Positions 10,231 through 10,342 of a stretch of 50,822 nucleotides of DNA are shown here, piece after piece (the first letter of the stretch is position 1; every line of letters starts with the position of its first letter). The DNA lies in assembly GCA_005790505.1 (NCBI GenBank), contig SXUP01000055.1:1-50822 (forward strand), read 5' to 3'. The translations under genes were made by a program, and so were the position numbers. The notes under the pieces are model-generated. The model worked only from the letters and a program-made list of their open reading frames with translations. It was not told where the DNA came from and made no database searches. This DNA is from Actinomycetota bacterium (GTDB lineage: Bacteria; Actinomycetota; Acidimicrobiia; Acidimicrobiales; Ilumatobacteraceae).

Positions 10231-10266
10231 AAATAAAAAACCTCCTGGCCAGAGCGCAGGAGGTTT
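10231..10266 (-). terminator. Intrinsic terminator (attenuator) upstream of leuA
   Basis: On the minus strand a 10-bp stem, AAACCTCCTG paired with CAGGAGGTTT, encloses a 9-nt loop and runs into TTTTTTATTT. It lies between the Leu-rich leader peptide and the leuA ribosome binding site. A second, imperfect hairpin (10267-10291, CGACA paired with TGTCG) precedes it. It sits where it would stop transcription before leuA unless disrupted, as in leader-peptide attenuation. Confidence 0.85.
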
Positions 10267-10294
10267 CGACAACAGCAGTATGGGGCTGTCGCCG

Positions 10295-10330
10295 CTACAT
10301 AAGTAGGAGATTCTGGCATTTGTAAGTCAC
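10295..10330 (-). CDS. Leucine leader peptide of leuA (attenuation)
   Basis: An 11-codon frame reads MTYKCQNLLLM and stops at TAG. Three consecutive Leu codons (CTC CTA CTT) lie just before the stop. The GTG start is exactly six bases after TAAGTT, a TANNNT hexamer, and there is no Shine-Dalgarno sequence, so the message is probably leaderless. The frame is followed by a small hairpin and the intrinsic terminator. Leucine-codon leaders before leuA are an established attenuation device in bacteria, including some actinobacteria. When charged Leu-tRNA is scarce, a ribosome stalled on the Leu codons would be expected to favour read-through. I could not identify a convincing antiterminator pairing by eye. 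Confidence 0.72.
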   Translation of the reverse strand: MTYKCQNLLLM

Positions 10331-10342
10331 CCCCGTAACTTA
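10331..10342 (-). promoter_or_regulatory. Candidate leaderless promoter of the leuA leader
   Basis: TAAGTT at 10337-10342 on the minus strand is followed by six bases and the GTG of the leader peptide. The -35 region is weak. If transcription instead starts upstream, the RNA could form a nested structure: 10362-10367 pairs with 10313-10318, and 10338-10344 pairs with 10321-10327, placing the leader GTG in the inner loop. Confidence 0.45.

Follow-up and report, generated by a model that had tools for sequence, protein, structure and literature searches.

A candidate leucine attenuator with abutting hairpins upstream of leuA in Acidimicrobiia

Results

The leuA locus and its upstream region

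The window (the whole stretch analysed, 50,822 nt of contig SXUP01000055.1, from an actinobacterial genome of the class Acidimicrobiia) carries on its minus strand a leuA gene (10156–8465), encoding 2-isopropylmalate synthase and taken here as the regulated gene. The product scores above the cut-offs of NCBIfam models TIGR00970 and NF002991, and the start was set by homology. A longer frame beginning with TTG (10219) was rejected as the start, since the same-genus LeuA homologues that were printed begin at the same MPP as the frame from ATG 10156. Ahead of the gene, the elements follow in the order: −10-like hexamer, GTG-initiated leader ORF, stop codon, a first hairpin (hp1), an intrinsic terminator, its U-tract, AAGGAAA, and the ATG of leuA at 10156.

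The leader ORF (10330–10295, minus strand, stop included) has 11 codons and reads GTG ACT TAC AAA TGC CAG AAT CTC CTA CTT ATG TAG, giving the peptide VTYKCQNLLLM. Its three regulatory leucine codons, CTC CTA CTT, occupy 10309–10301 and the TAG stop 10297–10295. Hp1 (10294–10267, minus strand) starts on the base immediately after the stop codon, and is 28 nt long with ten pairs and an 8 nt loop. It adjoins the terminator stem-loop (10266–10238, minus strand; arms AAACCTCCTG and CAGGAGGTTT), the stem of which consists of ten pairs, then one unpaired base, then two further pairs. The U-tract TTTTTTATTT (10240–10231, minus strand) shares its first three T with the paired base of the terminator, and ends about 75 nt before the leuA ATG. 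The original prediction had described an 11-codon minus-strand ORF with three Leu codons near its end, and a hairpin followed by a 10-pair terminator stem and T-tract ahead of leuA; both are read directly in the sequence, at 10330–10295 and 10294–10231, respectively.

Folding of 10345–10228 gave a z-score of −5.87, with none of 200 shuffles equally stable, although this stretch takes in a promoter inverted repeat (10345–10320) that is probably not transcribed in full. Short ORFs (<30 codons) with at least three consecutive Leu codons among the last six number three in the window, none on the plus strand and three on the minus strand. A strong fold with a T-run behind it follows only one of the three, so the combination is unique in the window.

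Further genes of interest lie at 22625–26482 (plus strand) and 11940–13924 (minus strand); they comprise leuB-, ilvE- and citramalate synthase-like genes, recognised by eye, and leuCD, identified by NCBIfam. A search of the window with the covariance model R1 of the element (described below) matched before leuA only. Rfam 15 found two tRNAs in the window and no other match. A further search gave one match, istR, whose 12.7 bits (E 4.6) fall short of the gathering score of 45, and across nine loci no Rfam 15 family matched up to an E-value of 1.

Leader start and promoter

The −10-like hexamer TAAGTT (10342–10337, minus strand) lies six bases 5′ of the GTG. A weak −35-like sequence, TGGCAA (10366–10361, minus strand), was picked out by eye 18 nt 5′ of the −10, and many loci of the same genus have TGGCGC, TGGTGC or TAGCGC at this place, also by eye. 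The placing of TAAGTT predicts that the RNA starts at, or adjacent to, the leader start codon.

In 58 of 126 loci (mean of 200 shuffles 3.4, maximum 9), a TANNNT hexamer ends 6–8 nt 5′ of the leader start, which was taken by choice as the ATG or GTG in frame with the Leu run and closest to it. These account for 58 of all 82 occurrences of TANNNT; the strict hexamer is missing in about half of the loci. SD-like 4-mers precede the leader start in four of the 126 loci, against 11 in shuffles. Such spacing of a −10-type hexamer, together with scarce SD-like 4-mers, is the pattern of leaderless mRNAs, and the leuA leader transcript is thus probably leaderless. This agrees with leuL1 and leuL2 of S. 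lividans, which are reported as leaderless (PMC8079986).

An upstream repeat, GTAAGT..ACTTAC (10345–10320), was considered as a further RNA hairpin and rejected: it overlaps both the −10 hexamer and the start codon of the leader, and two related loci (L002, L003) do not keep it intact. Given a leaderless start, it is most likely promoter DNA and not a third hairpin. A 52-codon ORF (MNAVLDATQ..., 10532–10374, minus strand) lies 5′ of the promoter and has no NCBIfam match; inspection by eye of 300 nt upstream at L002 and L003 showed no counterpart.

Conservation in relatives

The leuA genes of relatives were located by LeuA protein alone, which gave some match in 40 of 41 genomes, paralogues included. 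Thirty loci were found in this way, from which one gene fragment (L028) and two loci with another LeuA type (L029, L030) were excluded. The resulting 27 (the window and 26 relatives) have the window's LeuA type and available upstream DNA. A leader with three or four consecutive Leu codons, followed by a hairpin and a terminator, is present in 26 of them (25 of the 26 relatives). Leader peptides include VTYKSQNLLLM, MTLSSSLLLLM and MTCTNLLLLM; they vary in their first half (MTLSSS, MTCTN, MPTKTLSV, MSRPTT), and the Leu run and stop are constant. This upstream comparison was the check named with the original prediction, and it found the Leu codons, stop, hairpin and terminator all conserved. The sole exception, L027 (genome G040), differs in the DNA upstream of leuA: Leu codons can be made out there by eye (MSFLLDLRLLSPAA), but no such terminator.

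R1 was built from 20 of the 26 sequences, after removal of identical cores and with L021 retained though misaligned. A first search covered 88 of the first 100 loci (duplicates and partial loci left out) and matched 87, all except L027. The whole genome of the window holds one copy. Among 395 sampled Acidimicrobiia genomes, 209 carry copies, representing 129 of 184 genera; under the strict filters used, 186 of the 395 gave no match. Two genomes of the same family as G040 (G296 and G304) are also without a match. In a sample of 396 genomes from across the phylum, 36 were positive, 26 from the same class and ten from other classes. The 11 matches outside the class precede leuA (three), ilvB (five) and leuS (three), and fitting leader codons are legible in nine, such as MPPQITLVLID before ilvB and MSQNLLLT before leuA, and not in L279 or L284.

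For detailed comparison, 127 copies were drawn from among the matches listed, so that weak copies are under-represented; as L059 and L131 denote a single site in genome G096, the distinct RNAs number 126. All 127 have 3–5 consecutive Leu codons ending 0–2 codons before the stop, which is partly a product of selection, since R1 itself holds Leu columns; the 26 of 27 protein-found loci are free of such selection. The gene downstream encodes the window's LeuA type in 89 copies and a second LeuA type in 36, so that leuA follows in 125 of 127; of the other two copies, L117 precedes leuS and L037 is followed by the end of its contig. The representative of the second type (L030) passes TIGR00973, and in two genomes (G122, G179) that encode both LeuA types, a separate R1 copy accompanies each type. 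The earlier proposal of a Leu leader peptide and terminator-type attenuator of leuA is thus supported by conservation across the class.

Among 80 named loci, 37 matched R1 at E-values up to 1; several named Acidimicrobiia were unmatched, some of them because no upstream sequence was available. A leuA of the same protein type labelled as Rhodospirillales (L184, upstream of 2001) has a Leu-run leader (VCLPLLLLRLTRP) and no R1 match. Open-licence literature on attenuation or leader peptides in Acidimicrobiia, screened by title and start of abstract, yielded no paper on this element.

Covariation and geometry

The hp1 and terminator helices are both supported when 20 distinct cores are aligned. 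Cells changed on both sides numbered 39, against 11.8 in shuffles (none of 500 as high), and the signal was lost when helix partners were slid against each other. Two of the five covariation measures were weak, and kinship of the sequences inflates the rest: pairs with change on both sides were 8 of 18 against 5.7 in shuffles (24 of 500 as high), and further pair types 19 against 18.4 (220 of 500 as high). Pairing energies were lower for a copy's own partner than for mismatched partners, both in hp1 (−19.0 vs −13.6) and in the terminator (−14.1 vs −10.5). Across 28 segment pairs compared in this manner, covariation was found in these two helices only.

No antiterminator overlapping the terminator was found, either among the 28 segment pairs or in ribosome-masked folds. 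The arms of hp1 can pair with the terminator arms or apex at −6 to −8, without covariation. Such pairings were rejected on this ground, among them those of the terminator apex with the left arm of hp1 (−8.44 own, −8.72 mismatched) and with its right arm (−6.61 own, −6.76 mismatched).

The spacing of the parts is tight. In 116 of 127 copies hp1 starts −1 to +1 nt from where the stop codon ends, and the gap between hp1 and the first terminator pair is 0–2 nt in 112. Measured to the terminator's first G-C pair, the distance is 0–4 nt from hp1 in 117 copies, and a median of 29 nt (10–90% range, 26–31) from the stop codon. A Leu leader, a covarying hp1 and an abutting, covarying terminator are thereby shown, by comparative sequence analysis, to be a conserved build.

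Leucine codon usage

The leaders favour particular leucine codons. CTT makes up 173 of 454 Leu codons in leaders (38%) against 289 of 3996 (7%) in the leuA parts, and CTG 65 of 454 against 1592 of 3996. CTT and CTC together reach 80% in leaders and 42% in leuA parts. These two codons are usually decoded by one tRNA, and the bias is as expected from selection on decoding. Pairing with the terminator arm does not account for it, since synonymous codons drawn at leuA usage pair nearly as well (−8.77 kcal/mol, against −9.00 for the leaders' own codons).

Related elements upstream of ilvB and leuS

The ilvB gene in the genome of the window (L221/L241, contig C33, upstream of 44112) is preceded by the same build, with a leader (VNRLFLATESVVVVV) that has five Val codons, a hairpin that includes the stop codon, and then AAAAACCUCCC-AUUU-GGGAGGUUUUUUU. 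Among 32 ilvB loci, the sister build is present in 22 by an automatic pattern (which picked 23, one of them, L257, being spurious) and in four more by eye (L222, L262, L263, L267); L266 stands outside both counts. These sisters (L221/L241, L222–L224, L242–L252, L258–L265, L267–L269) have Val, Leu or Ile codons, a stop-anchored hairpin and an abutting terminator. Four loci of the window's genus (L253–L256) show no such ilvB leader or hairpins and have a different, T-rich upstream region.

R1 itself matched before ilvB in other actinobacterial classes (L274, L276, L280, L282, L284), a leader with branched-chain codons being legible in all but L284. It also matched before leuS in four genomes from the class or phylum sets (L117, L275, L277, L279), with a Leu-run leader legible in all but L279. 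Inspection by eye of about 330 nt found no similar element before trpE (G000, G026, G042, G353) or leuS (G000, G042, G353). The regulatory codons vary with the gene and the stop–hairpin–terminator unit stays constant, which points to a modular design.

Discussion

A ribosome-mediated attenuator as the preferred reading

Judged from sequence comparison, it is highly probable that leuA is under leucine-controlled attenuation. Hp1 is probably the part that the ribosome controls. Taken as a whole, the locus is best explained, with reasonable confidence, as a ribosome-mediated attenuator of leuA that responds to charged leucyl-tRNA.

With leucine present, the ribosome would reach the stop codon, its footprint would lie over the left arm of hp1, and hp1 would be unable to form. 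The terminator would then close and the transcript end near 10231. When leucine is short, the ribosome would stall on the first Leu codons and leave hp1 free to form. Predicted folding follows this scheme for hp1: assuming a footprint of 12 nt beyond the first base of the A-site codon, the expected pairs of hp1 fall from 8.5 with the ribosome at the first Leu codon to 3.4 at the last and 0.06 at the stop. Since a ribosome held at the last Leu codon already hides part of hp1, the outcome would vary with the codon at which stalling occurs.

The terminator, by comparison, is predicted in every ribosome state (mean probability 0.975–0.982 over four states). Thermodynamics alone therefore gives no switch, as masking of hp1 leaves the terminator probability unchanged, and if hp1 reads the position of the ribosome it must affect termination without competition for bases. 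We know of no published case of a non-overlapping hairpin acting as an antiterminator.

A steric last step is put forward tentatively: hp1, which in the great majority of copies lies just 0–4 nt from the terminator's first G-C pair, might get in the way as the final terminator pairs close within the RNA exit channel, resulting in readthrough into leuA. The closing of the final 2–3 pairs is reported to be essential (PMC4824070). The same source describes, in E. coli, how a ribosome close behind a terminator blocks termination, which drops from ~90% to <10% as the stop codon is moved from 28 to 5 bp upstream. During starvation hp1 would take the obstacle role that the close ribosome plays in the E. 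coli case, and the 29 nt ruler would keep a ribosome parked at the stop just distant enough for termination. The proposal gives the right sign of regulation and is an inference from geometry. More generally, the stop-anchored hairpin might be a ribosome-gated wedge set by the 29 nt ruler, in a modular design without an antiterminator that serves leuA, ilvB and leuS in several classes of Actinomycetota; this is conceivable, though on balance we doubt it in this general form.

Alternative explanations

One alternative, unlikely in our view but less so than the others, is that hp1 serves to pause RNA polymerase and so keeps it in step with the ribosome, with antitermination brought about by a protein or elongation factor, or in some other manner. 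A possible pause site, GCG (10257–10255, minus strand), would place the RNA 3′ end at C 10256, 11 nt past hp1, with G+1 at 10255. Hairpin-stabilised pauses are described with a duplex 11–12 nt upstream and a Y−1 G+1 signal (PMC12288461). A GYG with its Y 10–13 nt after hp1 occurs in 75 of 127 copies, against a mean of 20.9 and a maximum of 33 in 200 shuffles, a count that is inflated by relatedness. It is found there in four of the 14 copies of the window's genus, and is missing from the whole 22 nt after hp1 in 42 of the 127 copies, including ten of those 14. These absences led us to reject the pause site as the whole explanation, and pausing by itself gives no readthrough. Since the motif is lacking in so many copies, pausing is perhaps only an addition; as such it may be a further feature of the ribosome-mediated attenuator, with which it is compatible.

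A classical attenuator, in which an overlapping antiterminator was missed or the CTCCT of the Leu codons pairs with the AGGAG of the terminator's right arm, is improbable. The second form had been raised by the original prediction, and the complementarity it noted is real: the duplex of Leu run and right arm reaches −6 or lower in 92% of the 127 copies, it appears in the minimum-energy fold of L019 when a longer 3′ end is included, and in L075 roughly one such pair is expected. As an alternative fold it fares poorly, with no covariation (−8.31 own, −8.46 mismatched) and a near absence from predicted ensembles. Without a ribosome, the mean expected pairs are 0.01–0.02, none of 127 minimum-energy folds of model-length RNAs contains at least three of the pairs, and the leaders' own codons pair more strongly than the synonymous codons compared above in only 72 of 127 copies. 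The logic would also be reversed, since a ribosome stalled on the Leu codons would mask them and so favour the terminator. The ilvB sisters give a similar picture: two leaders with CTCCTC (L258, L259) could pair with the right arm (−9.7), but in six of nine checked the regulatory codons pair poorly with it (−0.3 to −4.2), the sister in the window's own genome reaching just −0.3 kcal/mol. In favour of a classical form, the ilvB attenuators of C. glutamicum (PMC11857589) and M. tuberculosis (PMC13236596) have been modelled with mutually exclusive hairpins.

That the locus is a constitutive terminator or a chance arrangement without a leucine response is very improbable in view of the class-wide conservation, covariation, codon enrichment and gene association. 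Least credible is control of translation by an actinobacterial LEU element, in which Leu codons pair with the leuA Shine-Dalgarno: gene and Leu-run leader are the same (PMC1262725), and S. lividans has a leaderless form that lacks a terminator (PMC8079986), but here a terminator intervenes, the leuA SD lies about 70 nt further on, and R1 matches none of 30 named leuA loci (L191–L220), including those of Cellulomonas, Nonomuraea, Arthrobacter and Lentzea with visible Leu leaders.

Comparison with known systems

In the trp and leu attenuators of E. coli, the position of the ribosome on regulatory codons decides termination by way of an overlapping 2:3 antiterminator. The ribosome-mediated attenuator proposed here shares the ribosome-position logic and differs in that no 2:3 equivalent was found.

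Branched-chain elements of Actinobacteria reported by Seliverstov and colleagues (PMC1262725) include LEU elements of leuA, which combine a Leu leader with a pseudoknot, terminator-bearing leaders of ilvB and, in Streptomyces, attenuators of leuS. The likeness to the ilvB(NC) attenuators lies in a short leader with branched-chain codons and a terminator before the gene, the gene there being ilvB and here leuA with Leu codons. The C. glutamicum ilvBNC leader is modelled with three hairpins in which terminator and antiterminator overlap (PMC11857589). For M. tuberculosis ilvB1, a short terminated RNA and codon-dependent induction are described, induction being abolished when Ala replaces the LVVI codons, and the model shares with ours a hairpin masked by the ribosome at the stop codon (PMC13236596). 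As described, these two and the Corynebacterium ilvB-II motif (PMC10272879) have mutually exclusive terminator and antiterminator, whereas no overlap was found here.

The LEU element shares the Leu-run leader before leuA, and is set apart by its description as a pseudoknot in which the Leu run pairs with the SD of leuA, no terminator being mentioned (PMC1262725). Here a terminator is present, and it is this helix and hp1 that covary; identity with the LEU element was rejected on this difference in architecture. The Streptomyces leuS attenuator (leuL2) has in common a leaderless Leu leader and a terminator (PMC1262725, PMC8079986), and R1 also occurs before leuS; that system is distinguished by its description as a classical attenuator with an antiterminator.

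Significance

The locus has a run of codons for the pathway end product in a leader, a terminator (judged by its structure and U-tract) lying between, and a pathway gene downstream, as judged by position. An antiterminator overlapping the terminator was not found. The element is very likely a class-wide leucine attenuator, and has no match among Rfam 15 families or in the literature searched. From its predicted structure it departs from classical attenuators, whose defining feature, an overlapping antiterminator, was sought without success.

The finding provides a predicted leucine-responsive switch for a large, mostly uncultured class, and would mean that leuA regulation in Actinomycetota takes at least two RNA forms. 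If hp1 works without overlapping the terminator, it would break the textbook rule that the folds of an attenuator are mutually exclusive, and the tight geometry may offer a compact, ribosome-gated terminator part.
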